A stretch of DNA of 39,476 bases, taken from Flavobacteriaceae bacterium. GTDB taxonomy: Bacteria > Bacteroidota > Bacteroidia > Flavobacteriales > Flavobacteriaceae. The notes beneath the pieces were generated by a model. It worked only from the letters and a program-made list of their open reading frames with translations, ran no database searches and had not been told where the DNA came from. How positions within the stretch are numbered: position 1 is the stretch's first letter; every line of letters starts with the position of its first letter. The stretch spans positions 1-39,476 of the forward strand of contig JAKITD010000023.1 in the NCBI GenBank assembly GCA_021648265.1. Reading direction: 5' to 3'. Shown here one piece after another: positions 1 to 34,586 of this stretch. The position numbers were made by a program, and so were the translations under genes.

Positions 1-2222
1 TCTTTTTTTATTTTATTTTCTGAAGGTAATAATGTATTTACATTGATTTGTCTTTGAATACTTTTTATATAAGAGATGATTTTATTTGGTTTAGTGTAAT
101 CTCCTGTCTTAGTTGCATCATATAAAGACAATAAATATTCTTTCATTATACTATTATAATTAAAAGTATCTAATTTTAAATCTGCATTTAATAGTTTTAG
201 AGCTCCCGTTATAGGCTGTTTGGCTATTGAATCGTTCCAACTTATCCAAAGGTGGTTTGGGGAGTCTTGTACTGGAAAAACCTTAAGTAAATCTCCTTGA
301 TAAATCATTAGAAAAACTTCAGCTCTTTCGTTTAATTTTATAATTTCTCTATCAAAAATATTCTGTTCAGATTGTTTTTTTCTGAAAGCAGTTTCAGCTA
401 CCTGAGCTAATTTGTAGGATCCATCTTCATTAAACAGATCGTTAAATGAAACGTATTTTCCTTGCTGTCCTAAAATATTAACCACAGATTCTTCTTTCAC
501 GTATATTATTTTCTGTTTTTTCCAATATTCTGCATTAATATTCATATCCAAAAAAGCCTGTACAGCATTCATTTTTTCTCTATCAGGGAAATTAAATTTG
601 TCTTTTTTTGAAATTTTATGCATTACATCGTAAGCTAAGGTGCTTACTGGAGCAAATCTACCTTCATAAGTCTGCACCAATAACTTTTCAAACTCTTTTA
701 TATGCTCTTTACTTATTGAACCTGTATAAGTTTCATGAGAATGGTTATTTACATCTTGGTTATTTTGTGAAAAAGCGACTCCTAGATTTATAAAAAATAT
801 AATTATTAATGTGCTTATTGTTTTTCGTTTCGCTCTAGTATTATTAATTTTTTCGAATAATTTACTATATCTAGACTGTTTATTAAACAACGTTAAAACA
901 AAGCCTAATCCTAATAAAAAATACCCAAAATAGGATACCCAAGTTCCATAAAAATCATGATTTACTGAAAGAATAGTACCTCTTTCATCTTTATCGTAGG
1001 ATGACTGAAAAAAACGATATCCTCCATAATCTAAAACATTATTCATAAATATTCTATGATTTTTATTTACCGCTTTTTCTTGGTCTATTAATGTAACCTC
1101 ACTTGCATAAGAAGATGGGCTATTTGACCCTGCATATCGCTCTAGTATAAATTTGTTTAATTTAATTGCAAATGGAAGGTGCATTTTTTTTAATCCATAT
1201 GAAATTTCAATTTCTTTATCATTAAATTTCTCCTTTTGATAATTATCTAAATACCCTCTACCACCAACTAGGGGAACTTCTTTTGTTATTCCGTTATAAG
1301 TAATTGTTGTTACCAAAACATCAGGTCCTGAAGTAGTTTCGTCCCCTTCGGCATATTGTATATGTGCATTGTTATATGTTTTAATGAGGGCAAACGCAAC
1401 ATGAGTTGCTCCAGGTTTATAAACGTGTTTTGGTTTTAATTGGGTTAAAGTGTTTTTTGGAATAATTTCGGAAATCATTTCTGGCATTTTTATTACTTCA
1501 ACAGAAGCAGGATACACAAAAAACACTTTATTATTGTGCAAGGTAAGTACCATTGCATTGGGCTTTTCGGTAGTATTAAAAGCTAGTGAAAATCCGTGTT
1601 TAACATTAACTGCACCTTCTTTTAAAATTATTTTATCTTGGTGGTTGTCTGAACTAAGATTAATTTCTATAATTTTTTTTCCATTTGTTCCTTTTCCTTC
1701 ATGGTATGTTTCTATTGCATTATTTATATGCTTTTTAAAATCAATTTTTACAGGATTTTTATCTGTGTAAATAGTGTATGAAAATGAATTATCGCTTTTA
1801 GCTCCTATAAGTATTGGTTTATTAGATGAAAAAGTGTTAGTAGCTGTTCTCACGCTTATATATGGATCTGAACTAAACATATAATTTGTTGATTCTCCTT
1901 CCCGAATATGCATAGTCCCTTCGTAACCTATATACCTAGTTATGCCCGCTCCCATTATTATAATAATAAAAGCAATATGAAACGTTAATGATGCCCATCT
2001 TTCTCTTCTTAAAAGTTGATATCTTTTAATACTTCCAATAAAATTAACAATTAATAATAATAGTAATACTTCAAACCACTTGGCGTTATAAACAAGTATT
2101 TTAGAAGTTATTGTATCATACTTATCTTCAATAAAAGTTGCTGTAGCTATAGCAATTGTAAAGACAATAAGAAGTATTAAAGTAGTTTTTGACGAAATTA
2201 AAATACTAAGTAGTTTTTTCAT
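1..2222 (-). CDS. ccsBA: Cytochrome c biogenesis protein CcsBA (ResB/CcsA fusion), N-terminal ~740 residues; 3' end beyond window
   Basis: This gene is open from an ATG at 2222 to the left edge with no stop. The start reads MKKLLSILISSKTTLILL. Hydrophobic segments lie at about residues 14-30, 50-63 and 79-97, followed by a long extracytoplasmic domain and another membrane segment near residue 425, just after GGYRFFQSSYDKDERG. This is the layout of the ResB-like half of the Bacteroidota CcsBA fusion, which exports heme and attaches it to CXXCH motifs outside the cytoplasmic membrane. His82, in the third segment (LTFHIAF), sits where the family has its first membrane heme-ligand histidine. The WWD-containing CcsA half must lie off the window. 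It diverges from an NrfJ-like gene and shares an FNR-like operator with it. It probably matures the neighbouring multiheme cytochromes, although a left-flank cytochrome operon is also possible. Confidence 0.9.
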   Translation of the reverse strand, partial: MKKLLSILISSKTTLILLIVFTIAIATATFIEDKYDTITSKILVYNAKWFEVLLLLLIVNFIGSIKRYQLLRRERWASLTFHIAFIIIIMGAGITRYIGYEGTMHIREGESTNYMFSSDPYISVRTATNTFSSNKPILIGAKSDNSFSYTIYTDKNPVKIDFKKHINNAIETYHEGKGTNGKKIIEINLSSDNHQDKIILKEGAVNVKHGFSLAFNTTEKPNAMVLTLHNNKVFFVYPASVEVIKMPEMISEIIPKNTLTQLKPKHVYKPGATHVAFALIKTYNNAHIQYAEGDETTSGPDVLVTTITYNGITKEVPLVGGRGYLDNYQKEKFNDKEIEISYGLKKMHLPFAIKLNKFILERYAGSNSPSSYASEVTLIDQEKAVNKNHRIFMNNVLDYGGYRFFQSSYDKDERGTILSVNHDFYGTWVSYFGYFLLGLGFVLTLFNKQSRYSKLFEKINNTRAKRKTISTLIIIFFINLGVAFSQNNQDVNNHSHETYTGSISKEHIKEFEKLLVQTYEGRFAPVSTLAYDVMHKISKKDKFNFPDREKMNAVQAFLDMNINAEYWKKQKIIYVKEESVVNILGQQGKYVSFNDLFNEDGSYKLAQVAETAFRKKQSEQNIFDREIIKLNERAEVFLMIYQGDLLKVFPVQDSPNHLWISWNDSIAKQPITGALKLLNADLKLDTFNYNSIMKEYLLSLYDATKTGDYTKPNKIISYIKSIQRQINVNTLLPSENKIKK

Positions 2223-2347: not shown

Positions 2348-3055
2348 ATGAGACTTATATTAATGAATTTATTTTTTATTTCTTTATTTTTTTCTTGTAA
2401 ATCCGATATAAAAAAGGACAGCGAGAATAGTTTGTCTGCACGAAAAATTGTGGTTCAGGAAGTAATAAATATAAAAGATTACACTTATTTACGTGTTTTT
2501 GAAAATGATGTTGAGAAATGGGTTGCAACTTCACCAATTTCTGCTGAGAAAGGAACGGTTTTTTATTTTAAAAACGCAATGGAAATGGCTGATTTTGAAA
2601 GCAAAGAGCTAAACAAAATATTTAACAACATACTTTTTGTAGATCGTCTTAGTACAACCCCAGATTTGACACTTGTTGAAGATAAAATCACTATGAAAAA
2701 TTTATCTGAAAAAGCAACTAAACCCATTATTGAACAAAAAGAAATAACAATTACTCCAACAAACGGAACAATAAGTATTTCTGAAATTTATAAAAACAAA
2801 GAAAACTATAATAACAAAGTCGTAACTGTAAAGGGAGAAGTGACTAAAGTTAATCCTGCAATATTAAACAAAAATTGGGTTCATTTACAAGATGGCAGTT
2901 CATTTAATAATGATTTTGATTTAACAATTACAACCCAAAGTGAACTTATAGTAGGTGATGTAGTTACTCTAAAAGGAACACTAGTAACTAATAAAGATTT
3001 TGGTGCAGGATACACCTATAGTGTTATTATTGAAGATGCAATATTAATAGAATAG
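2348..3055 (+). CDS. NrfJ-like lipoprotein with C-terminal OB-fold domain
   Basis: A 235-residue predicted lipoprotein: the start MRLILMNLFFISLFFSC has a lipobox with Cys17. Residues ~33-103 form a domain marked by DYTYLRVF, a W in EKWVAT and SKELNKIFNNILFV. This resembles small exported proteins found beside multiheme cytochrome and nrf loci (NrfJ-like); the family assignment is from memory of the motif pattern. Residues ~148-235 (VVTVKGEVTKV, WVHLQDG, GDVVTLKGTL) look like an OB-fold of the exported type. It is first of two tandem paralogues; the second starts 46 bp downstream. Its biochemical role is unknown. Binding of a small ligand or help in cytochrome assembly would fit its position. 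It is probably controlled by the FNR-like site upstream. Confidence 0.7.
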   Translation: MRLILMNLFFISLFFSCKSDIKKDSENSLSARKIVVQEVINIKDYTYLRVFENDVEKWVATSPISAEKGTVFYFKNAMEMADFESKELNKIFNNILFVDRLSTTPDLTLVEDKITMKNLSEKATKPIIEQKEITITPTNGTISISEIYKNKENYNNKVVTVKGEVTKVNPAILNKNWVHLQDGSSFNNDFDLTITTQSELIVGDVVTLKGTLVTNKDFGAGYTYSVIIEDAILIE

Positions 3056-3101
3056 AATCACTTAAACTTCTCTATTAAAAAGCATACTAATTAAGAAACA
3101 A

Positions 3102-3818
3102 ATGAATATCGGTTTTATGAAACAAACAGCAATTTTACTTACTGCTATGGTATTCTTTTTTAATATTGAAAACGGATTTTCTCAAAACAAGACAATTTAT
3201 GAAGTAACCGCTACTGAAGTAATACAAGTAAGTTCTTACACCTATTTACTTGTAAAAGGTAAAAACACAAAAATGTGGTTAGTGGTTCCAAAATTTGAAG
3301 CTAAAGTAGGTGAAAAATATTACTATAAAGGAGGAATGTTAATGTCTAATTTTAATAGTAAAGAATTAAATAGAACTTTCGAAAATGTTTTATTTCTAGA
3401 GAATATAAGCCCTAGTAAAATTGATTTAGAAATTAAAACATACAAACACAATAGTAAAAACAATAACTCAAAAAAAGATACTAATAAAAAACTTAAAAAA
3501 ATATCTGAAAAAATCCCACCTATCTCAAATGGAATTTCAATATCTGAATTATTAAAAAACAAACACCTCTATAAAGGCAAAACCGTAATCATTAAAGGTA
3601 AAGTAACAAAATATACTCCCAAAATAATGTATAAAAACTGGTTTCATTTACAAGACGGAACAGAATATAATGATGTTTTTGAAATTACTGTTACTACAAA
3701 TGCACAATTAAAAGTTGGTGATATAGTAACTGTAAAAGGTACAATAACCTTAAACAAAGACTTTGGCTACGGTTACCTTTACAAAATAATTTTAGAAAAT
3801 GCTGTTATTATTGAATAG
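3102..3818 (+). CDS. Exported NrfJ-like/OB-fold protein, paralogue of the preceding gene
   Basis: A 238-residue protein with the same two-domain plan as its upstream neighbour. The first domain has SSYTYLLVKG, MWLVVP and SKELNRTFENVLFL (residues ~40-105). After a lysine/asparagine-rich linker (~115-145) comes an OB-fold-like domain (VIIKGKVTKYTP, WFHLQDG, GDIVTVKGTITLNKDFG). Unlike the neighbour it has a cleavable signal peptide (ending near GFSQ) and no lipobox cysteine, so one copy is membrane-anchored and the other probably soluble in the periplasm. Translation could start at 3102 or at the in-frame ATG at 3117 (MKQTAILL), which gives a more ordinary signal peptide. It is likely co-transcribed with the 2348 gene and ends tail-to-tail with the 11-heme cytochrome gene. 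Confidence 0.7.
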   Translation: MNIGFMKQTAILLTAMVFFFNIENGFSQNKTIYEVTATEVIQVSSYTYLLVKGKNTKMWLVVPKFEAKVGEKYYYKGGMLMSNFNSKELNRTFENVLFLENISPSKIDLEIKTYKHNSKNNNSKKDTNKKLKKISEKIPPISNGISISELLKNKHLYKGKTVIIKGKVTKYTPKIMYKNWFHLQDGTEYNDVFEITVTTNAQLKVGDIVTVKGTITLNKDFGYGYLYKIILENAVIIE

Positions 3819-3836
3819 CTACCTCTAGTTTAATTG

Positions 3837-4904
3837 CTACAATTCTCTACTATAACTTTGTTCTTTATGGCAACCACTTAAACAAGTACCTCCTTGCTCT
3901 GTGGCAATATACTTTAAAGGCATATCCCAACTTCCAAACTTAACGGTTTCGGGAACTAAATGATCTCTACTAGAGCCATGAATACTGTGGCAGTTTACAC
4001 AAGTTCTTCCTTTTTTCTTATTAATATGAATATAATGAAGATTCTGTTCTCCATTTCTAAACTCTGTAGCATACTTAGTTTTTTCTAATAATAATAAATC
4101 TGCATCATGACACCCAAAACAAAGGTCATAGTTTTCTTCGGTTCCTTCTGCATAATTTTTTGTAGGATAAGGAACATTTAGTAAGTACAAATTCTCTGAA
4201 GCGTGTGGGTTGTGACAAACGGTACAGCCATCATCAAGTGCTTCATGTTTAAATTCACTTTCCCTTATTAACTTTTCTATATTACTTATTTCTCTTTTAT
4301 CTACTTTAATAGTTTCATTATGACATTCTAAACATAGTGCTTTTTCATTTTTTAAAAGTATCTTTTTTATTGAAGAAGAGTGAGGAGAATGACAATTAAC
4401 ACAACCCCCTTCCTTTGTGGCAGGAGTATGTACAATTTTAGACTTTTTAATAAAACTTTCCAACTCATCATGGCAGAAATAACATAAATCGGGTGATTTT
4501 GCGAAAATTAAATTTGAATCGTTAGAACTATGAACTTCATGACATTCCATACAATCACCCTTTTTAACAGGGTCATGAATATATTTAACTTCTAGATACA
4601 CATCCCGAGCCTCCTCATGGCAAGAATAACAAAGTGCTGCACCTTCATATAAAAGTGTAAAGCCTTCTTCATCTTCAACTGGATGCTTTTTACCGTTAGG
4701 TATATGGCAAATTAAACAGTCTGTTGCCGTTGGACCATGAACTATTTTATTTTTTACGGTTCTACTATGGCAATCAACACAGGTTTTTTCTGTGGTTATT
4801 TCTTGAGCATGAAGTTGTAAATTAATTATAAATAAAATAAACAATACCTTAGTTATAAAATTACGTAAGCCCATTATTTCTATACTTTTTATTGATGTTT
4901 TCAT
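3837..4904 (-). CDS. Exported 11-heme c-type cytochrome (doubled CXXCH type)
   Basis: A 355-residue protein with an N-terminal signal peptide (hydrophobic to about LHAQ, residue 34). It has ten CXXCH heme-attachment motifs (CVDCH, CLICH, CYSCH, CMECH, CYFCH, CVNCH, CLECH, CTVCH, CFGCH, CVNCH) plus a terminal C-X3-CH motif, CLSGCH, at residues 341-346. Many motifs occur in pairs with SPH/NPH/VHS following, the pattern of doubled CXXCH domains. It is the last gene of the 8636->3837 unit, 61 bp after the beta-barrel gene. There is no lipobox and no type IX sorting domain, so it is periplasmic or passes through the barrel to the surface. The likely role is electron transfer as one half of a porin-cytochrome conduit; the redox partner is unknown. 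Confidence 0.85.
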   Translation of the reverse strand: MKTSIKSIEIMGLRNFITKVLFILFIINLQLHAQEITTEKTCVDCHSRTVKNKIVHGPTATDCLICHIPNGKKHPVEDEEGFTLLYEGAALCYSCHEEARDVYLEVKYIHDPVKKGDCMECHEVHSSNDSNLIFAKSPDLCYFCHDELESFIKKSKIVHTPATKEGGCVNCHSPHSSSIKKILLKNEKALCLECHNETIKVDKREISNIEKLIRESEFKHEALDDGCTVCHNPHASENLYLLNVPYPTKNYAEGTEENYDLCFGCHDADLLLLEKTKYATEFRNGEQNLHYIHINKKKGRTCVNCHSIHGSSRDHLVPETVKFGSWDMPLKYIATEQGGTCLSGCHKEQSYSREL

Positions 4905-4965
4905 CTTACTTAAAATTTGTATGTTCTAAAATAATACTTTTTAGTATTTTAATCAAGAAATCTAG

Positions 4966-6951
4966 TTAAAACCTTCTTGTTATACTTAAATTAACTCTAT
5001 TAAAATCTGTTGTTTCATTAAATAATTCATTTCTATAAATTGCTAGTCCAGCATTTATATATAAAGCTCTATATTGAGTACTTATTTCTAATTTGGATGT
5101 TAGTAATTTTAAATTAATCCCTTCAACTGTACCTTCTTGATTTCTGTATCCTCCTTCAATTCTTATTCTTGTTTTGTTACTTATTTTATAAGACATATTT
5201 CCAGTTATATTGAAAAATTTTTGCTTATTCCCCTCTTCAAGTATCATATAATAATCTTGAATTATTCCATTTAAGGCATAAGTAAATTTATTTTTAATAT
5301 TTCCATTTAAAGAAATATAATATTTCATTAATCTATATGGTACAATTGTACTATTATAATCATCGTATTCTACACCTACATTTATAAATTTATACCTAAA
5401 CCTTGTTCCATAAACATTTTTGGTAAAATAATTAAGCGTTAGATAATTTATATTAACAGGGTTTACATAGTCTTGCTTCGAGGTAGTATAATACACTTCA
5501 AATTTATTTTTAAATAATGATATATTAATTCCAAAAAGATTTGTTATCGAAGTAAATTTGAAAGATTGAGGTTGAACATACATGTAATCAACATATATAA
5601 ATGAATTATTACTTATAATACCTCCTGGAATTCGTTGTATTTCTATAAACTCATTGTATTCAATAATAACATAATCAATGTTAAGTTGATAAATTATTGT
5701 TCCTGTATTGTCTCTAACCGTTATTGACGAAGCATCAATATTTTGGTTATTTAGAAGAACCATTTCGCCATCAGATAACAAATGACTTTCGTTTTGCACA
5801 TTAACTATATTATCCTCACTTCTTCTGTTTTGATTAAATAAATTTAACTTATAAGAAAGAGATAATACCCCATCTAACGGTATTTTTTTTGTATACCTAA
5901 CATCCAGTCCTAGTCTGTTTGTATTCTCATTATATTGATTATCACTAACTATATTGTTATAATTATATGAGATGTTTGTTCGTAAACTTTCGTATAACTT
6001 ATGAAGCAGTATTCCTTTTACATTATGTTGTTTGGTATGTTGAGAGCTTCCTTCAATGTTAAAATAGTTATAATTGCCTGAAAAAGTAAAATTTTTAGGT
6101 AATTTTAAAAAAGCATTTTCCATTATCTGAAATCTTTTAAAAAAATAATCTCCCGTTTGGTTTTCATTAGAAATTCTTGAGGTTAAACTGTACTTTCTAT
6201 CTGAGTCTAAAAAAAGCCTATTAGTCAGCTGCCAGATTCCAATATTATTTTTAATATTATTAATAATTAATGTGCTATTGGGTAATTCGAAAGTGTTGTC
6301 ATACTCATATTTATTATAAGAATATACAAATTCATTCCAGTCTTGATCTCCAAAAGATTTGTGAGTTCTAATTTCAAATAAATCTTGTTTTGTAACAAAC
6401 CTTACATTTGTTTCTAGTTCTTTTTGATCGCCAATACTATTATTATAAGAAACTGTAAATGGAAGTGTTTTATTTGAATAATTTAATGTCCCTCCAAAAT
6501 TCTTATAATTAGATTTAAAATTAGTTAAGTTCTCTCTATTATTATATGTTTCGTTAATATTTGTAAAAAAATTAAAACTAAGGTTATTATGCTTAAAAAA
6601 TGTTGCTTTAGCATACAGTTTTTTTAATGTATTAATTTCATTTCTGTCTGGAGCCAATAAGGAAAGTCTTTGTCCAGTTTCTGGGCTATACCCAACATTC
6701 AAATCTAAAGTGACAAAATTGGGATGCCAAAAAAAACTTCGGGTATTAACAAATAAACCTACAGAACCATAGGCGTTTTCAATTTCTTCTAAAGTATTTA
6801 GTCTTTCAATATCTTGATTCCAATAAGCTCCATTTAAAATAACCTCTCCATTAATTGATGTTAATTTCCAAAATGCAGTAGTCGTTTCGGGTTTTTGGGT
6901 GTACCCAAGGCTTGAATAACATAGTAAATATAATAAGAGTATTCTTCTCAT
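4966..6951 (-). CDS. Outer-membrane beta-barrel protein of a porin-cytochrome cluster
   Basis: A 661-residue protein with a signal peptide (cleavage near GYTQ). The rest is made almost entirely of alternating polar/hydrophobic strands rich in Tyr, Phe and Asn (for example NFFTNINETY, YSYNKYEY, YNYFNIEG), ending in the aromatic residue typical of outer-membrane barrels (NLSITRRF). No TonB box or plug domain was recognised, so it is more likely a porin than a TonB-dependent receptor. Residues ~385-460 (LSDGEMVLLNNQNID, NIDYVIIEYNEFIEIQRIPG) interrupt the strand pattern and look like a small separate domain. It lies between a 5-heme lipoprotein gene (6 bp upstream) and an 11-heme gene, as in porin-cytochrome conduits. 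That it sheathes a heme wire is inference from this context. Confidence 0.7.
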   Translation of the reverse strand: MRRILLLYLLCYSSLGYTQKPETTTAFWKLTSINGEVILNGAYWNQDIERLNTLEEIENAYGSVGLFVNTRSFFWHPNFVTLDLNVGYSPETGQRLSLLAPDRNEINTLKKLYAKATFFKHNNLSFNFFTNINETYNNRENLTNFKSNYKNFGGTLNYSNKTLPFTVSYNNSIGDQKELETNVRFVTKQDLFEIRTHKSFGDQDWNEFVYSYNKYEYDNTFELPNSTLIINNIKNNIGIWQLTNRLFLDSDRKYSLTSRISNENQTGDYFFKRFQIMENAFLKLPKNFTFSGNYNYFNIEGSSQHTKQHNVKGILLHKLYESLRTNISYNYNNIVSDNQYNENTNRLGLDVRYTKKIPLDGVLSLSYKLNLFNQNRRSEDNIVNVQNESHLLSDGEMVLLNNQNIDASSITVRDNTGTIIYQLNIDYVIIEYNEFIEIQRIPGGIISNNSFIYVDYMYVQPQSFKFTSITNLFGINISLFKNKFEVYYTTSKQDYVNPVNINYLTLNYFTKNVYGTRFRYKFINVGVEYDDYNSTIVPYRLMKYYISLNGNIKNKFTYALNGIIQDYYMILEEGNKQKFFNITGNMSYKISNKTRIRIEGGYRNQEGTVEGINLKLLTSKLEISTQYRALYINAGLAIYRNELFNETTDFNRVNLSITRRF

Positions 6952-6957
6952 TTTAAA

Positions 6958-7557
6958 CTATTTGTTTTTAATTAAAAACATATTAGAATCCCCTCCATGA
7001 GGGTTATGGCACTTCAAGCACGTCGTTTTACTTATATCTTTATGTTCATTATTATCTCCCAAAACATCCAAATCATGACAATTCAAACAAAGATTTTGAA
7101 CACTTCTTACTAATAGATTTTTATATTTTGCTCTGTGCGGACTATGGCAAACTAAACAATCTCCTGAAGCAACAGGACCATGTAATATTAAATATGAAGT
7201 ATTAAAATTATCGTGGCATTTATAGCATAATTTATCTGAGGACTTTAGGGGATTTTTTGTGTTTTGCATATTATGACACTCAGAACACTTTCGTTCTCTA
7301 TAAGGCTCATGGATACTAACACTTATTTTTTCATTAGTTCTCCTGTTATTTACAAATACTTTATTATTCTTTTCAGATAATAAACTGTCAACATTGCTTA
7401 ATGAATCTTGATAAATTGGGGAGTAAACCTCATACTTTGGAACTCCATCGAAAATAAAAGATTTAATTTGGTATGAAGACTTTGAAGAGCATGCACAAAA
7501 CAACGTTGTGATAAGTGTAAATAATATAAGCCGAATGTGCCCTTTAGCTATAAACAT
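6958..7557 (-). CDS. Pentaheme c-type cytochrome lipoprotein
   Basis: A 199-residue protein starting with a lipoprotein signal (LITTLFCAC, modified Cys probably residue 23). It carries five CXXCH motifs in its second half: CSECH, CYKCH, CLVCH, CLNCH and CLKCH, with HGP, SPH and NPHGG histidines nearby for distal ligation. The first ~85 residues have no heme motif and look like a tether or docking segment. The gene sits 6 bp from the beta-barrel gene and 8 bp after an NHL lipoprotein gene, so the three are surely one operon. A lipidated small cytochrome next to a barrel suggests the periplasmic electron donor to, or acceptor from, the conduit. Confidence 0.85.
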   Translation of the reverse strand: MFIAKGHIRLILFTLITTLFCACSSKSSYQIKSFIFDGVPKYEVYSPIYQDSLSNVDSLLSEKNNKVFVNNRRTNEKISVSIHEPYRERKCSECHNMQNTKNPLKSSDKLCYKCHDNFNTSYLILHGPVASGDCLVCHSPHRAKYKNLLVRSVQNLCLNCHDLDVLGDNNEHKDISKTTCLKCHNPHGGDSNMFLIKNK

Positions 7558-7565
7558 TATAAAAC

Positions 7566-8636
7566 TTATTTAGGTTCAACTCGTCCGTAAACACTAATTT
7601 TTTCTGGACCGTATTGATTGGCTACAATAATTAAATACTTTAAATTATATTTTGGATCTACATACTTTTCAAAATATTTTAAATTATCATAATCAATACT
7701 AACTTTAGTGGGTAGCCACATGTCGCCTTTGCTAACGTAATGTCCACCAAAAAACAAAAGTAATTGTCCTTTTTCATTAAATATTTGTACATTTTCAAAG
7801 CTAGCATCTACTACATAGAGGTTGTCTTCTCTATCTACAGCAACTCCTTTTGGGCGTACAAAACTACCTATAGTATTACCATATTGCCCTATTGTTTTAA
7901 TATAACTACCGTTAAGAGAATAAACTTTTACATTCCCGTGACCCATATCACTAACATATATTTTATCTTTTGTTACAAATATATTAGTGGGTTTATATAA
8001 AAAACCTTCTTCTCCATTTTCTAGTTTTGGAAAATAGTCTTCGTATTCAAAAGTTTTTTTGTTATATATATTAACGCGGTTGTTACCAAAATCAACAACC
8101 CAAATTTTATTATTTGCAATAAAAACATCTGTTGGTTTTACGCTTTCCTTTTTCCCAAAAGTAGTTATGTAGTTTCCATCTTGATTATAAACTATAACTT
8201 TTTGTAAAGCAATGTCAACTACAAAAAGATTGTTTTCAGTATCAACATAACAGTTTAAAGGAAGTTTTAATTTATGTTCTCCTTGTGGAAAAAAATAGGA
8301 AAGCTTTTCATTTTTTAAATCTATAATTTCAAGACCACCTCCAAGAGCAACATCACACACATATATCTTTCCGTTTCGTAAAAACAAACCATAAGGTTTA
8401 ATTATAGAAATTTCTTTTTCTTCACCTATAACAGATTTAACAAAAGCAGATTTTTTTGGTGTAATATCTGCTGAAGTACTATAGCTTTTAAGATGTTGTA
8501 TCCTTGCAGTATCGGGAGGTGAAGGGTATATTATATATTTATTTGTTAAAGATTCATTAATTTTTGGTGAACAAGAGGTAAGTAAAATTGTACTAGCAAT
8601 TACTATTATACCTAATATGAAACTCAATCTGTTCAT
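7566..8636 (-). CDS. NHL-repeat beta-propeller lipoprotein
   Basis: A 356-residue lipoprotein (lipobox ending STILLTSC, Cys22) followed by a 6-bladed propeller of NHL-type repeats. Typical blades read GLFLRNGKIYVCD, NNLFVVDIALQKVIVYN and GVAVDREDNLYVVDAS. It heads the 8636->3837 operon. It has no heme motif and no recognisable catalytic residues. NHL propellers are common neighbours of multiheme cytochrome operons and are usually taken to be scaffolds or assembly factors, so the role here is inferred. A second NHL gene (11315-12325) heads the other cytochrome unit, which suggests each cytochrome set has its own propeller. Confidence 0.8.
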   Translation of the reverse strand: MNRLSFILGIIVIASTILLTSCSPKINESLTNKYIIYPSPPDTARIQHLKSYSTSADITPKKSAFVKSVIGEEKEISIIKPYGLFLRNGKIYVCDVALGGGLEIIDLKNEKLSYFFPQGEHKLKLPLNCYVDTENNLFVVDIALQKVIVYNQDGNYITTFGKKESVKPTDVFIANNKIWVVDFGNNRVNIYNKKTFEYEDYFPKLENGEEGFLYKPTNIFVTKDKIYVSDMGHGNVKVYSLNGSYIKTIGQYGNTIGSFVRPKGVAVDREDNLYVVDASFENVQIFNEKGQLLLFFGGHYVSKGDMWLPTKVSIDYDNLKYFEKYVDPKYNLKYLIIVANQYGPEKISVYGRVEPK

Positions 8637-8702
8637 AACGATCTGTCTTTTTCAGTTTAAATTAAAAAAATAAGTTATTCCGATGTAAATTACTCATATT
8701 GT

Positions 8703-8727
8703 TGATTTTAATCTATGATTAAAATCA
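8703..8727. promoter_or_regulatory. Long palindrome containing an FNR/CRP-type site upstream of the NHL-cytochrome operon
   Basis: Two 11-base arms, TGATTTTAATC and GATTAAAATCA, are separated by three bases. The right side contains TGAT-TAAA-ATCA (8716-8727), the same TGAT-N4-ATCA pattern found at the other promoters. At the same 36.5 bp distance lies TAATTTAC (minus strand, 8692-8685), a weak version of the TAnnTTTG element, 48 nt before the start codon. The left arm gives a second, imperfect half-site pair, so two dimers might bind. Confidence 0.5.
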
Positions 8728-8785
8728 GTTTATCAAGAATAAAAAATGAATGATTTCAATAATTTACGTGCTAATTAAAAACACC

Positions 8786-8807
8786 AAAAGGGCATAAATG
8801 CCCTTTT
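8786..8807 (-). terminator. Intrinsic terminator of the tetraheme cytochrome gene
   Basis: The arms AAAAGGGCAT and ATGCCCTTTT form a hairpin, followed on the minus strand by a T-rich tract. It lies just after the stop codon at 8831 and separates this gene from the next cytochrome operon. Confidence 0.75.
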
Positions 8808-8830
8808 GAATAAAAGTATTATAATTTAAT

Positions 8831-9457
8831 TTACATATTATGGCAAGTTAAGCACAAAGCACTTCCTGCGTTACTTTTAATTAGTAAATTACCAACACCT
8901 GAACCATTGTGAACATCATGACATGAAGAACATTGTAATTTTTGAGCCAATAACATGTCCCCATCTATAGTTCCTCCTAGCCCTGAGGTTTGTGTAGTAG
9001 GATCAAATAAACCTCCATCTGTGGTAGCTAATGCAGCATCGTAAATAAATGAAATTGGATGCTCTGTTGTTAAATTTGTTCCTATTAGTTCATTTCCAGT
9101 TATAAACTCTGAACCACCTGTAGCTCCGCCAAAATTATCTAAAGGTACAGTTCCGTCATGACAACTTAAGCACAGCTTTGAAGAACCGTCTGGCTGGGTT
9201 GTAATACCATCAAAAGAAGGTGATATTAAGTTTGTGTATAGCTGATAAGTTGCCGTAGAAACTTCGTGATTCCAAAGTGGAGCTACTAAACCAATTACAG
9301 CTCCGTGAGGAGTATGACATACTTGGCAAATCTCCCCGTTAGGATTCCATGTTTCTTGTGAAAAATCATGTGCAGATCCAGCAATAGTTTGTCCAAAACC
9401 ATAACTGAACATTAAAACTGACATTGTTAACGTGATAATAATTTTTTTTGCCTTCAT
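8831..9457 (-). CDS. Exported tetraheme c-type cytochrome, possible filament subunit
   Basis: A 208-residue secreted protein with a signal peptide ending at about FGQ (residue 23). It has four CXXCH motifs at residues 44-48, 96-100, 176-180 and 202-206. Five further histidines (30, 51, 64, 133, 183) exceed the four needed as distal ligands. Motifs such as AHDFS, CHTPHG, PLWNHEV, CLSCHDGTV and EHPISFIYD belong to the doubled-CXXCH family that includes small secreted cytochromes of metal-reducing bacteria. Size and heme number match tetraheme cytochromes that polymerise into extracellular wires, but that function is inferred. It is transcribed alone, between an FNR-like promoter and a terminator. 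The N-terminal module of the 9631 protein is clearly related. Confidence 0.85.
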   Translation of the reverse strand: MKAKKIIITLTMSVLMFSYGFGQTIAGSAHDFSQETWNPNGEICQVCHTPHGAVIGLVAPLWNHEVSTATYQLYTNLISPSFDGITTQPDGSSKLCLSCHDGTVPLDNFGGATGGSEFITGNELIGTNLTTEHPISFIYDAALATTDGGLFDPTTQTSGLGGTIDGDMLLAQKLQCSSCHDVHNGSGVGNLLIKSNAGSALCLTCHNM

Positions 9458-9503
9458 AACTTGAAATTTAAGAATTAATTCATGTACACTCAGTACACGA
9501 CAT

Positions 9504-9511
9504 CTAAAGTA
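9504..9511 (-). promoter_or_regulatory. -7-like promoter element of the tetraheme cytochrome gene
   Basis: The minus strand reads TACTTTAG, one mismatch from TAnnTTTG, with its last base exactly 36.5 bp from the centre of the palindrome at 9535-9546. It lies 46 nt before the ATG. Confidence 0.5.
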
Positions 9512-9534
9512 AAGAATTCAATACTCTCAATTTA

Positions 9535-9546
9535 TGATATTTATCA
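9535..9546. promoter_or_regulatory. FNR/CRP-type site upstream of the tetraheme cytochrome gene
   Basis: TGATATTTATCA fits the TGAT-N4-ATCA pattern shared by all cytochrome promoters here, and lies at the same 36.5 bp distance from the -7 element. The surrounding 173-bp intergenic region (9458-9630) holds no other gene. Confidence 0.55.
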
Positions 9547-9630
9547 CCTTTTGTAACATTTGTTCCAAACGTTTTTGCGTTGTTTTTTTATGTAATTTTA
9601 TTGAAATATTTTTAGAAAATAAAAATAAAG

Positions 9631-11307
9631 CTAATACGATTCGGGATTATGATCTTCCCCATGACAAGTTAGATAACAACGTCCACTTCTTACCCCTGTA
9701 TCTTCGAATTTTAACAATCCGCTTGAAGAAGGAAATACAATATCTGTTCTAAAATTAATTAAATTAGAATTATTAAAAGACGATCCCTGCATACTACTAA
9801 TACCATGTGGATCATGGCACGCACTACAAGGAGAATCTTCTTTTACAATATGTTTTTTATGTTCTGGAAATGTATTATTATCATTTATAATATTGTTCCG
9901 GTTATGGCAACTATAACATAATTGATAGGCTGTTGGGGATTCTACTGTATAATCATCTGTTAAATATTGATTTTTTAATATGTATGGATAAATTGAGCCA
10001 TGGGGACCAGAAACATTTGAGTTATTACTTGCGTGACAGTCTGAACAATATAAAATTGTACTAATAGTATTTGGGTAAATTAAATTTGCTGAAACTTCAG
10101 AATTATTCCTTGCTCCAACTACTGGGTGAAAAGAGGGGTTAGATATATCAAACTCTAATCGTGTATTATTTTCATTAATAAGCCTTGGAAAAGCTGAAAC
10201 TGGTGTCCAGAAACTATCAGAATGACATTTATAACACATTTCGTATTCAAACATAGCAGGATTAACAATATTTCCAGATTGATTTATACCATTTACACCT
10301 TTATTATATCCTTTTAAATAAGGTGCAGAATTTGTTGTTTTATTTGAAGCATGCGGATTATGGCAATCTTGGCATTCTACGTGTTTTGTGTTAGATAAAA
10401 CATCCTCGGTAGGATCGTGTATGTTTGTATAACCATATACATCATGTCTGTATGTTTTGGTAATATCTGCTTGTACATTTTTTAAAGCTACATTTCCATT
10501 ATGACAATCAAGGCAATTATCTTCTTCTGTTAAAGCCTTCAACAAACGTTTATTCCCTTTTGCATTATGAGTATCATGACAATTTTCACATCCGTTTTGG
10601 GAAACATTAAGGTAAGCTGATTCAAGATGCGACCATGGGTTATCACCAGTTCCGTTCCAAGTATTTAATGAAGTTTTATGAGTACTATTATCCCAATAAG
10701 TTCTGTCATGACAAACAAAACACAAATTAGAAAATTCATTAGTAGTTACTAAAAAATTTGAATATATATCCTTATGAGGATCATGACAAGAGGTGCATTG
10801 TAATTTTGAGTTTTTATCTAACTCCATATTTGGTAATGGAGGAGTTTTTAATTGCCCATCTGTTGTAGCTAATAAAGCATCATAAACAAAAGAAACAGGA
10901 TGGTCATTAGATAAATCTGTAGTAAGGCTACTTTTGCCAGCAAGCTGACCTGTCATTTCTATTGGGAATGGCCTACTAGCAATTTCTCCCAAAGCTATAG
11001 TGCCATCATGACAAGAAAGACATAGCATAGAACTCCCATCTGGTTGACCTTGGACTGCATCAAAAGTAGAACTCTTGTAAAGTATATAGTTTGTTCCTGG
11101 AATATTCTTATTCCATAAGGGAGATCTAGGACTACTTTTATGAGGAGAGTGACAAAAAATACAAATTTCAGATTCCGATGTTGCTTTTATAGTACCTGAA
11201 GAACTTATTGATAAATTATGCTTTGTTGTAATTATAGTTTGAGAAAATATTCTCATTGGAGAAATTATCAATAAAAAAAATAAAAAAATAATTTTTAAAT
11301 TTTTCAT
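9631..11307 (-). CDS. Exported 12-heme c-type cytochrome with an N-terminal tetraheme-like module
   Basis: A 558-residue protein with a signal peptide (to about RIFSQ, residue 23). It has eleven CXXCH motifs (CIFCH, CLSCH, CTSCH, CFVCH, CENCH, CLDCH, CQDCH, CYKCH, CSDCH, CYSCH, CSACH) and a terminal C-X3-CH motif, CYLTCH, at residues 544-549. Residues ~30-200 align with the separate tetraheme protein: its first heme is at 49-53, the second at exactly 96-100, and DHPVSFVYDALLATTDG recurs. The remaining eight hemes are in paired CXXCH repeats with NPHAS, DTHNA and DPHGI. It follows the NHL gene by 7 bp and ends its transcription unit. It is probably exported to the periplasm or cell surface. 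A role linking the conduit to a tetraheme filament or an external acceptor is inferred. Confidence 0.85.
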   Translation of the reverse strand: MKNLKIIFLFFLLIISPMRIFSQTIITTKHNLSISSSGTIKATSESEICIFCHSPHKSSPRSPLWNKNIPGTNYILYKSSTFDAVQGQPDGSSMLCLSCHDGTIALGEIASRPFPIEMTGQLAGKSSLTTDLSNDHPVSFVYDALLATTDGQLKTPPLPNMELDKNSKLQCTSCHDPHKDIYSNFLVTTNEFSNLCFVCHDRTYWDNSTHKTSLNTWNGTGDNPWSHLESAYLNVSQNGCENCHDTHNAKGNKRLLKALTEEDNCLDCHNGNVALKNVQADITKTYRHDVYGYTNIHDPTEDVLSNTKHVECQDCHNPHASNKTTNSAPYLKGYNKGVNGINQSGNIVNPAMFEYEMCYKCHSDSFWTPVSAFPRLINENNTRLEFDISNPSFHPVVGARNNSEVSANLIYPNTISTILYCSDCHASNNSNVSGPHGSIYPYILKNQYLTDDYTVESPTAYQLCYSCHNRNNIINDNNTFPEHKKHIVKEDSPCSACHDPHGISSMQGSSFNNSNLINFRTDIVFPSSSGLLKFEDTGVRSGRCYLTCHGEDHNPESY

Positions 11308-11314
11308 ATTATCA

Positions 11315-12325
11315 TTATTTTTTTACTAGTTGAAATATTTGCACCCTCGAATTATAACTATCTGCAACGTAAATATAATCATTCTCGTCTATATAAATTC
11401 CAGCTGGCATCCAAAACTCTCCTTCATTTCTACCTTGTTTACCGAAATTATATAAAAAATTCCCCTTAATATCAAAAATTTGAATAGTATGAAAAAGAGC
11501 ATCCGAAATGTAAATATGTCCCTTAGAATCTGTCGCTATTCCTTTAGGACGCGAAAAATAACCACTAGCATTGCCTTGTTCTCCAAAAACACTAATTACT
11601 TCACCATTTTTATTAAATACTTGAATTCTAAAATTCATAGAATCTATTACATAAACCCTTCCTTGCTTGTCTATCCATATAGCTGTGGGATAATTAAATT
11701 CACCTTTTCCTGTTCCTCTTTTTCCTATGGTTTTAATAATTTCTCCATCTTGGCTTAAAATTGTAATTCTATGTTGAGAGGTTTCTACTACCCAAATAGT
11801 ATTAGATATTTGTGAATAAGCGATTCCTGTGGGCTGTTTAAGCTTTAGTTTATCATTAAATGGATAAATAGTGTTTTTAGATATATTGAATTTAAAAATT
11901 TCACCTAGTCTAGAGTCTGTAAATAAATACTCATTATTTGATAAACTACAAATATTAACCATAGATGAGAAAAAGCGTTCTGTTTTTGTAAATATTTTAG
12001 GAATATGACTATTATTATTATTAATTTCAAAAACTATCCCATTGGCTTGATCTAAAACATAAAAAGATTTAGTATTAACAGCAATCACATCTATTGGCTT
12101 AGTAACCTTATAATTGTTTTTTTTACCGAAAATTAAATCCGAAAACCACAAAGCTGCGGTTTTTTTACTTTTATTTTTTTCTGAAGGAAATTGTTTTACC
12201 CAAATAACTTTAAAACTATCACCTGTTTTTATTATTCCCTTTTCTTGAGAAAACATTTGAACAGTAAATAAAATTGGTAAAATGATTTTTATAATTACAT
12301 TCTTATAATTGTTTAAAAAAAACAT
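11315..12325 (-). CDS. Exported NHL-repeat beta-propeller protein
   Basis: A 336-residue protein with a cleavable signal peptide (hydrophobic, ending near QMFSQ) and no lipobox. At least four NHL blades are clear in its second half: EFNYPTAIWIDKQGRVYVID, YFSRPKGIATDSKGHIYISD, EFWMPAGIYIDENDYIYVAD and an earlier GIAYSQISNTIWVVE. It has no heme motif. It is the first gene of the 12325->9631 unit, 7 bp before the 12-heme cytochrome gene, and is driven by a consensus -7 element with an FNR-like site. It is paralogous to the lipidated propeller at 7566-8636. It is probably a periplasmic or surface scaffold for cytochrome assembly; no enzymatic site is visible. Confidence 0.8.
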   Translation of the reverse strand: MFFLNNYKNVIIKIILPILFTVQMFSQEKGIIKTGDSFKVIWVKQFPSEKNKSKKTAALWFSDLIFGKKNNYKVTKPIDVIAVNTKSFYVLDQANGIVFEINNNNSHIPKIFTKTERFFSSMVNICSLSNNEYLFTDSRLGEIFKFNISKNTIYPFNDKLKLKQPTGIAYSQISNTIWVVETSQHRITILSQDGEIIKTIGKRGTGKGEFNYPTAIWIDKQGRVYVIDSMNFRIQVFNKNGEVISVFGEQGNASGYFSRPKGIATDSKGHIYISDALFHTIQIFDIKGNFLYNFGKQGRNEGEFWMPAGIYIDENDYIYVADSYNSRVQIFQLVKK

Positions 12326-33659: not shown

Positions 33660-34586
33660 TTACTCTTTTTTCAAAAAGTCAATGTTTCTAATTAAACCTG
33701 AGTATTTAGTACGTTTTATTGGGTTTTTTCTGAATATTTCCTGAAATACTTCCACCGTAATTTCTTCCCAATCTTTTTTAGACATTGATAGTAATTCCGG
33801 GTTGGGATTAAATAAAGGCTCGTTATGTGGTTTACTAAAACGATTCCACGGACATACATCTTGGCATATATCACAACCAAACATCCAATCGTTGAATTTT
33901 CCACTCATTTCTGAAGGAATTTCGTTTTTTAATTCAATCGTGAAATACGAAATACATTTACTTCCATCCACGACATAAGGTTCTACTATTGCCTGTGTTG
34001 GGCAAGCATCTATACAGGCAGTGCATTGTCCACAGTGGTCGGTGGTTTTATAATCGTAATCCAACTCCAAATCAATAATCAGTTCTGCGATAAAATAGAA
34101 GGAACCGTTTTGTTTGGTTATTAAATTACTGTGTTTTCCTATCCAACCCAATCCGCTTTTCGCTGCCCAAGCTTTGTCTAAAACAGGGGCGGAATCTGTA
34201 AATGCTCTACCGTAAACTTCGCCAATTTCTTCCCTAATAAAATGAAGTAATTGTTTTAACTTGTCCTTAATCACAAAATGATAATCTTGTCCGTAAGCGT
34301 ATTTTGAAATTTTATAAGTGTCTCCTTTTTGAAGTTTTTCTGGAAAATAATTTAATAATAACGAAACCACACTTTTTGAATCTGGAACTAATAAAGTTGG
34401 GTCTAACCGTTTATCAAAATGATTTTCTAAATAGCTCATTTCGCCTTGCATATTCTTTTTTAAAAAATTATCAACCCGTGGTGCTTCTTCTTCTAAAAAA
34501 TCTGCTTTACTTATACCACAAGATAAAAATCCGAGTCGTTTTGCCTCGGATTTAATTAGATTGGTATGTTTTGTTTTTGAAAGCAA
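33660..34586 (-). CDS. queG: Epoxyqueuosine reductase
   Basis: A 308-residue cytoplasmic iron-sulfur/cobalamin enzyme for the last step of queuosine synthesis in tRNA. Two [4Fe-4S] motifs are complete: [16 protein letters not shown] and [13 protein letters not shown]. The N-terminal domain ([38 protein letters not shown]) is family-standard. The start must be TTG at 34586: an in-frame TAA lies two codons upstream, and the next ATG (in [10 protein letters not shown]) would remove conserved residues. The gene lies 53 bp after ruvB, beyond a hairpin. Confidence 0.93.

Follow-up and report, generated by a model that had tools for sequence, protein, structure and literature searches.

A Predicted Porin–Cytochrome Conduit with Paired OmcE-like Cytochromes in a Member of the Flavobacteriaceae

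Introduction

What might a flavobacterium do with a gene cluster that encodes 32 heme motifs, an outer-membrane barrel and two β-propellers? The cluster lies at 3837–12325, on the minus strand, of a 39,476-nucleotide stretch from a Flavobacteriaceae bacterium (assembly GCA_021648265.1, contig JAKITD010000023.1, positions 1 to 39,476; hereafter the window). An initial annotation, made from the letters of the window, read it as a porin–cytochrome electron conduit, and that reading is backed in outline by homology, a barrel model and synteny, with localization and electron transfer being predicted. Beyond it, one cytochrome of the cluster and the N-terminal domain of another prove to be homologous to OmcE, a cytochrome known from filaments of Geobacter sulfurreducens. 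At the level of sequence and synteny the conduit is borne out, and it probably functions in the way proposed, extended by a filament module. We suggest that the cluster encodes an electron conduit through the outer membrane, coupled to an extracellular cytochrome filament of the OmcE type, a reading to which we assign a probability of roughly 0.6.

Gene Content and Heme Motifs

Seven open reading frames (ORFs) were confirmed on the minus strand of 3837–12325, encoding four exported cytochromes, one barrel and two NHL propellers, and their position, strand, order and heme numbers agree with those first annotated, as does the gene spacing with the three proposed units (3837–8636, 8831–9457, and 9631–12325). 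The 32 motifs comprise 30 CxxCH and two CX3CH sequences, carried by c11 (355 aa, 3837–4904; ten CxxCH and one CX3CH), a 5-heme lipoprotein (199 aa, 6958–7557; five CxxCH), c4 (208 aa, 8831–9457; four CxxCH), and c12 (558 aa, 9631–11307; 11 CxxCH and one CX3CH). In both c11 and c12 the CX3CH motif is the terminal one. This CxxCH content is not due to chance, because shuffled versions of the four cytochromes average fewer than 0.1 CxxCH each (means of 0.014–0.086), and in a six-frame count of the window all 30 CxxCH fall inside the four cytochrome genes.

The Pfam doubled-CXXCH family (Paired_CXXCH_1) matches all four cytochromes, and the NHL or six-bladed propeller families match both propeller proteins, NHL1 (7566–8636; a lipoprotein with the lipobox LTSC) and NHL2 (11315–12325; exported, NHL E 6e-27). 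The barrel (4966–6951) has no Pfam family. An NCBIfam DmsE-type decaheme model matches the cytochromes below its cut-off, best on c11. As first annotated, no reductase or other enzyme domain was detected by Pfam on the nine scanned ORFs of 2348–12325. GC content is 29.3% in 3837–12325 and 32.2% in 12326–39476.

OmcE-like Domains of c4 and c12

A single-sequence search (phmmer) with c4 matched OmcE (7tfs, E 8.1e-20) and a deposited multiheme cytochrome (9yuq, E 1.4e-20), and a c4 profile of 54 rows matched the same two Protein Data Bank (PDB) entries at E 5.4e-44 and E 2.8e-41. A second such domain lies in c12, residues 8–201 of which match 7tfs at E 1.4e-28, such that c12 consists of an N-terminal OmcE-like domain (approximately residues 1–202; c12N) followed by eight heme motifs. 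When a heme-free AlphaFold2 model of c4 (54 rows; mean pLDDT 80.8, pTM 0.73) was compared with the PDB by Foldseek, OmcE was the sole significant match (E 2.2e-7, TM 0.55/0.57, rmsd 6.0), with the next at E 7.1. A relation of c4 to WD40 proteins was rejected: WD40 repeat designs top the E-value list (to 4.6e-35), but their values are sums over repeats of 7–12 bits each.

The residues expected to hold the hemes are conserved as well. All four proximal histidines are kept in 54/54 c4 rows, and four non-motif (distal) histidines common to OmcE, 9yuq, c4, and c12N are kept in 53–54 of the 54 c4 rows and in 80–81 of 81 c12N rows. The C-terminus of c4 falls right behind the last heme, as in OmcE. 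A fifth non-motif histidine, His64, is kept in 52 of 54 c4 rows, is arginine in OmcE and 9yuq, and is histidine in one of 81 c12N rows, making it a possible extra ligand special to c4. Throughout c12, 16 non-motif histidines are conserved, each in no fewer than 79 of 82 rows; this is a count without a structure, and because 16 suffice for second-side ligation of 12 hemes, c12 needs no open catalytic heme. A reductase function was rejected on this ground together with the lack of an enzyme domain. The first description of the cytochromes as wires rather than enzymes thus stands as far as a reductase is concerned and falls short in another respect, since c4 and c12N resemble filament cytochromes and not generic wires.

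To place the two domains, an unrooted tree was built from 137 rows (54 c4, 81 c12N, and two PDB sequences), in which the bootstrap is incompletely settled and four branches, including that of 9yuq, are long. The c4 and c12N rows form separate groups with supports of 100/93 and 100/92, and each group contains Bacteroidota, Calditrichota, Nitrospirota, and Pseudomonadota. Because each separate group spans the same four phyla, c4 and c12N appear to be ancient paralogues whose lineages have remained associated.

MtrA-like Cytochromes and a Large Barrel

Profiles of c11 (19 rows) and of the 5-heme lipoprotein (16 rows) have the same best PDB match, chain A of 6r2q, at E 5.8e-25 and E 5.4e-21, respectively. 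The entry is described as the Mtr complex of Shewanella baltica. We take its chain A to be MtrA; the molecule name listed for the chain is 'Cystathionine beta-synthase'. Both proteins are MtrA-like by sequence likeness. Cys 23 of the lipoprotein is invariant in 16/16 aligned rows, and the counterpart of this protein has nine hemes in several relatives. The initial annotation had recognized the logic of a barrel with a small lipidated and a large cytochrome, which is right in outline, with the 11-heme and 5-heme proteins as the MtrA-like pieces, and had missed the OmcE-like part.

Structure prediction of the barrel protein (46 rows) returned a large all-β barrel with a mean pLDDT of 89.1 and a pTM of 0.71. 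The model has 30 strands of at least ten residues, which by our own reading of the DSSP listing correspond to approximately 28–30 barrel strands plus a conserved insert near residues 393–450; the barrel of MtrB has 26 strands. Four of the five residues invariant in the 46 rows (E388, D426, R440, and Y456) fall in or beside the insert, at approximately residues 386–460, and the insert is a candidate docking site. Foldseek matched the model to 217 PDB chains at E ≤0.001, and the 50 best are assorted outer-membrane barrels with TM <0.5, among which MtrB (6r2q_B) ranks fourth and has the highest TM (0.41/0.42). The barrel may work like that of a porin–cytochrome conduit (Pcc), and it is not assignable to the MtrB family.

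Distribution and Co-inheritance

A contig scan with the c12 alignment gave at least 555 relatives among 589 stretches, and the best 80 were analyzed. These loci were chosen by c12 likeness, so their rates are silent on c4 genes without c12; most are metagenome-assembled genomes (MAGs), some are near-copies or lie on shared contigs, and record titles are fallible. According to those titles, the best 80 come from Bacteroidota, Chlorobiota, Ignavibacteriota, Calditrichota, KSB1, Nitrospirota, Nitrospinota, Pseudomonadota, Verrucomicrobiota, and a 'Deltaproteobacteria' bin. The set is not confined to this flavobacterium and is found in many other bacteria. Named isolates among them are Aestuariivivens sediminicola MTV5-3, Aromatoleum toluvorans, A. 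tolulyticum, and Azoarcus sp. Aa7, the first of which has the complete gene set (locus L090). A record titled Chlorobiota (L026) is probably a mislabelled bin; its likely genome, G232 (holding contig C276), is placed in the window's own family.

Rates were taken from the 35 of 80 loci in which c12 is flanked by 9 kb or more on each side, the remaining 45 being cut short, and gene presence was scored by bit thresholds. Five core genes (c4, NHL1, barrel, NHL2, and c12) are all present in 33 of these 35, with c4 in 34, the barrel in 33, NHL1 in 33, and NHL2 in 35; c11 is found in 29, the lipoprotein in 27, and an OB-fold gene in 11. Among the short-flanked loci, 25 have c4 and 28 have the barrel. 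The two exceptions to the core five are L080, which probably corresponds to contig C44 of genome G003, where c4, NHL1, the lipoprotein, the barrel, and c11 lie on contig C45, and L037, a chromosome-length MAG in which the barrel and NHL1 are missing and NHL2 (159 aa) and c4 (two motifs) look shortened. Across the 80 loci there are 78 instances in which NHL2 is the recognized gene immediately preceding c12. Differences in gene order involve two blocks, NHL2–c12 and c4–NHL1–lipoprotein–barrel–c11, with further shuffling in Nitrospirota and Pseudomonadota.

Within the family the set is rare; the initial annotation had called extracellular electron transfer untypical of Flavobacteriaceae. The barrel occurs in 5/397 Flavobacteriaceae genomes and c4 in 5/397, and the five are identical (G000, which is the window's own genome, G003, G025, G219, and G232); with the own genome fixed, the chance odds of the four others agreeing are ~1e-9 if kinship is ignored. 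A draw from the phylum had c12 in 5/395 genomes at E 1e-60, with scores over 600 bits in two, and within the genus c12 was found in 3/19 genomes, one of which matches only the first 218 of 565 positions. These surveys scored up to three first-look candidates per genome (barrel and phylum c12) or up to seven (c4), so that misses are not proof of absence. In the accessible text of the open-licence literature pairing these themes with Flavobacteriaceae or Bacteroidota, we came across no description of a comparable set from Flavobacteriaceae.

The history of the locus appears to differ from that of its host. The conduit proteins are 28–54% identical to those of the same-genus genome G787 and 47–73% identical to those of genus g232, whereas a core gene (33660–34586) points in the opposite direction, with 82% to G787 and 78% to g232; this single gene is a thin yardstick. 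The contrast is carried by c4, c12, the barrel, and NHL1 (55–73% to g232 vs 28–50% to G787), while c11 and NHL2 differ little between G787 and g232 (53 vs 58% and 54 vs 55%). In a c12 tree made by a quick method, Flavobacteriaceae rows stand in two distant places. A transfer or replacement of the locus is likely. A plasmid-borne locus was considered and rejected, as 72,556 plasmid records held no c12 match at E 1e-30.

Flanking Genes and the Wider Genome

The locus extends to the left of the span first annotated. An OB-fold-like pair occupies 2348–3818 on the plus strand: the first protein (2348–3055), a possible lipoprotein with a loose lipobox (FFSC), has a sub-cut-off DUF1980_C match, and the second (3102–3818), which is exported, has a sub-cut-off OB-fold match. 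Beyond the pair lies the open frame of a ResB-family (CcsBA-type) cytochrome c maturation protein (3–2222, minus strand; 740 aa; ResB Pfam E 1.4e-24), cut by the contig end. In the relative L017 the neighbour is full-length (1070 aa) and combines a ResB with a Cytochrom_C_asm domain. G787 shares the gene arrangement of this locus (ResB gene, OB pair, c11, barrel, lipoprotein, NHL1, c4, c12, NHL2), and loci of Bacteroidota and Nitrospirota retain the OB-fold-like pair next to the cluster. A second ResB match of the own genome is on contig C41. We hypothesize that the pair and the ResB protein would serve heme attachment to the neighbouring cytochromes.

Elsewhere in the genome, several genes bear on where electrons might come from or go. 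The aerobic chain first noted in the window is there, with COX1, COX2, and COX3 by Pfam, and is not the whole of the respiratory repertoire. Contig C93 (L112, 1425–7522) encodes a molybdopterin oxidoreductase, a NapB-family cytochrome, a second 4-heme protein, and an NrfD protein, and is a probable periplasmic nitrate reductase operon by its domains. A module of NrfD, 4Fe-4S, DUF5777, and monoheme genes, which lies near the cluster in G232 and G025, is here on a separate contig (L110, C65, 839–5841) together with an EB_dh gene; EB_dh accompanies the module in G232 also, and a 6-heme gene accompanies it in G025. Given these two sets of genes, anaerobic respiration is possible. The module occurs in 40/397 family genomes at E 1e-80 (32 at ≥60% identity) and in four of the five conduit genomes, G003 being without it. 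Its role as a strict partner of the conduit was not upheld, the module being enriched and not specific, with kinship uncorrected, and because many genomes without a conduit carry it the link is suggestive only.

Two further loci are of note. Contig C76 (L111, 5013–7193) encodes a 726-aa protein with eight CxxCH motifs and TPR repeats. On contig C107 (L132, 6616–11138) a secretin adjoins a T2SSE-family ATPase and a pseudopilin-looking ORF without a Pfam match, resembling a type II/IV-like secretion system in a flavobacterium. A missing secretin had been considered as an argument for barrel-mediated export, and the secretin and ATPase refute it.

Comparison with Described Systems

The closest described system that we found is the Uet pathway of Tenderiales, which is alike in its gene list. 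As described for Candidatus Tenderia electrophaga and some Gallionella, it comprises an extracellular tetraheme protein, a barrel, NHL proteins, an undecaheme doubled-CXXCH cytochrome, triheme proteins, and a peptidylprolyl isomerase (PMC10734462). The likeness lies in having a tetraheme protein (UetA), a β-barrel (UetC), NHL proteins (UetHI), and a doubled-CXXCH cytochrome of 11–12 motifs (UetJ) in one cluster, as is the case here. Unlike this cluster, Uet has by that description an isomerase (UetB) and three triheme cytochromes (UetD/E/G). The window holds no triheme cytochrome, its 30 CxxCH lying in cytochromes with 4, 5, 10, and 11, and no peptidylprolyl isomerase family was found on the nine ORFs of 2348–12325 or the two next upstream, the rest of the genome not having been searched for it. 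Conversely, this locus has the MtrA-like 11-heme and 5-heme proteins, the OB-fold-like pair, and the ResB gene. Because the triheme proteins and isomerase are not in this cluster, and the comparison is with a published description, we call the locus Uet-like and not Uet. The 2017 Tenderia paper, in its accessible part, lists locus tags for the undecaheme and triheme genes and states that they were expressed at the cathode, the undecaheme gene without differential expression between two potentials. The accessible open-licence literature yielded no link between Uet and OmcE.

Homologues of OmcS, OmcE, and OmcZ are described as having a wide distribution among bacteria and archaea (PMC12307469), and the presence of an OmcE homologue is therefore no novelty in itself. 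With the OmcE filament protein of G. sulfurreducens (7TFS), c4 shares four hemes, a homologous sequence and fold, and the same proximal and four distal histidine positions. In this locus c4 is accompanied by a barrel and by a second OmcE-like domain that continues into an eight-heme region. The Shewanella MtrCAB complex (6R2Q) also combines a large barrel with an MtrA-like multiheme protein. It differs in that the barrel studied here is without a sequence match to MtrB, that likeness to MtrC/MtrF is limited to a domain-level Pfam match on c11 and c12, and that two MtrA-like proteins are present here, one of them a lipoprotein.

Other systems share single traits. An undecaheme cytochrome of Candidatus Dechloromonas occultata, cited beside Tenderiales (PMC13264449), is alike by description. 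In a cytochrome operon of SEEP-SRB1 and relatives (Skennerton 2017) a six-bladed propeller protein likewise adjoins large multiheme cytochromes, but, as far as the accessible description goes, these have 16 and 26 hemes, a peptidylprolyl isomerase is present, and no porin homologue is reported (PMC5539420). The PCC3 and Geobacter Pcc/Ext conduits combine a barrel with periplasmic and extracellular multiheme proteins; PCC3 is described with other heme numbers (21–27 periplasmic, 10–35 extracellular), and the accessible descriptions of PCC3 and Pcc/Ext do not name NHL proteins or an OmcE-like pair. The class of system is thus known, and what is new is the arrangement of a conduit with paired OmcE-like proteins, here in Flavobacteriaceae.

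A Proposed Conduit Joined to a Filament, and Its Alternatives

Heme motifs, export signals, homology to OmcE, sequence likeness to MtrA, a large barrel, co-inherited core genes, and an adjoining heme-attachment gene, each seen in sequence or in a model, are together the reason for proposing a conduit joined to a filament. The MtrA-like cytochrome or cytochromes would occupy the barrel and pass electrons through the outer membrane, c12 would dock outside, and its OmcE-like domain would cap or seed a polymer of c4, while the NHL propellers would aid folding, secretion, or docking. The NrfD/Fe-S module may link the conduit to the quinone pool. Electron flow could be outward, to a mineral or partner, or inward from one of these, with O2 or nitrate as the final acceptor. 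More tentatively, c12 could be the missing nanowire anchor, its OmcE-like domain seeding or capping the 4-heme filament and its other eight hemes joining the filament to the porin conduit; we place this specific assignment well short of an even chance.

Several observations weigh against the proposal. The identity of c4 to OmcE is 33.5%, and their fold match is moderate (TM 0.55, rmsd 6.0, for a model without heme). In the unrooted tree OmcE and 9yuq group together, outside both c4 and c12N and set off by a well-supported branch. Heme ligation in c4 may differ from that in OmcE because the conserved His64 is arginine there, and homology to OmcE does not by itself establish that c4 polymerizes. 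The role of cytochrome filaments is described as contested even in Geobacter (PMC11077965). As for the conduit, the TM of 0.41 between barrel and MtrB is only a generic barrel match, and a PDB sequence search with the barrel gave nothing better than E 0.15 and no match to 6r2q_B. c11 and the lipoprotein are each dispensable, because they are missing from six and eight of the 35 well-flanked loci, respectively. No NapC/NirT-type quinol dehydrogenase was found in the own genome, which is 92% complete, and export of c4 through the barrel cannot be asserted because a secretin and a T2SSE-family ATPase exist.

One alternative concerns direction, and has these components take up electrons from reduced minerals or partner cells and deliver them to O2 or nitrate. 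It overlaps with the proposed conduit and filament, so that the odds of the two are not additive, and we hold it to be somewhat less than evenly probable. The closest described system is reported from cathode-oxidising Tenderiales, the best 80 relatives include Thiobacillaceae records, and terminal oxidase genes in the window and the nitrate-reductase-like operon elsewhere would offer acceptors. On the other hand, many of those relatives are Bacteroidales, Ignavibacteria, and Calditrichota records, and these groups are largely anaerobic. Direction is unreadable from sequence, and electron flow through Mto/Mtr is described as possibly reversible (PMC10734462).

A conduit without a filament, in which the barrel and MtrA-like cytochromes cross the membrane and c4 and c12 are single surface cytochromes, seems to us unlikely but deserving of weight. 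It would agree with UetA and UetJ as described, for the accessible account describes a porin complex with an extracellular tetraheme and an undecaheme protein, without naming a filament of them (PMC10734462), and also with the position of OmcE and 9yuq outside the c4 group. In the OmcE filament, however, one heme is reported to be ligated by the neighbour subunit (PMC12307469, PMC12954529). Since all histidine positions that OmcE has in common with c4 and c12N are conserved in both, the one that serves that neighbour, whichever it is, is conserved too, and the end of c4 right behind its last heme is likewise that of OmcE.

That the cytochromes form a periplasmic electron capacitor or partner another enzyme, the barrel being an unrelated porin, is improbable. 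The targeting features visible are N-terminal export signals and lipoboxes only, and the Pfam matches of the nine scanned ORFs include no T9SS C-terminal domain family, which would suit such a store; but barrel and c4 are found in the same five of 397 genomes and together in 33/35 loci, and gene-by-gene listings of eight loci show c4 and c12 separated by no ORF of at least 110 aa apart from recognized cluster genes. Finally, a decayed or foreign passenger without function here is very improbable, since its patchy occurrence in the genus (3/19, one partial), the closeness of c4, c12, the barrel, and NHL1 to g232 against the trend of the core gene, and the lower GC of the cluster (29.3 vs 32.2%) are set against open frames, conserved heme motifs, and a full gene set kept with its maturation gene, and the discordance, which c11 and NHL2 hardly show, favours transfer or replacement and not loss of function.

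Implications

The locus brings together an OmcE-like subunit, a further OmcE-like domain continuous with eight heme motifs, a barrel, and cytochromes resembling MtrA. Because these parts adjoin and are inherited together, the question of how a filament is anchored becomes directly testable. If the reading of c12 as the anchor is true, a single gene cluster would contain the whole circuit from membrane to nanowire, common to Bacteroidota and several further phyla and exchanged among lineages. A few Flavobacteriaceae, including the isolate Aestuariivivens sediminicola MTV5-3, are candidates for extracellular electron transfer, and the findings suggest that this family, in the main an oxygen-respiring one, may include members able to make electrical contact with their surroundings.

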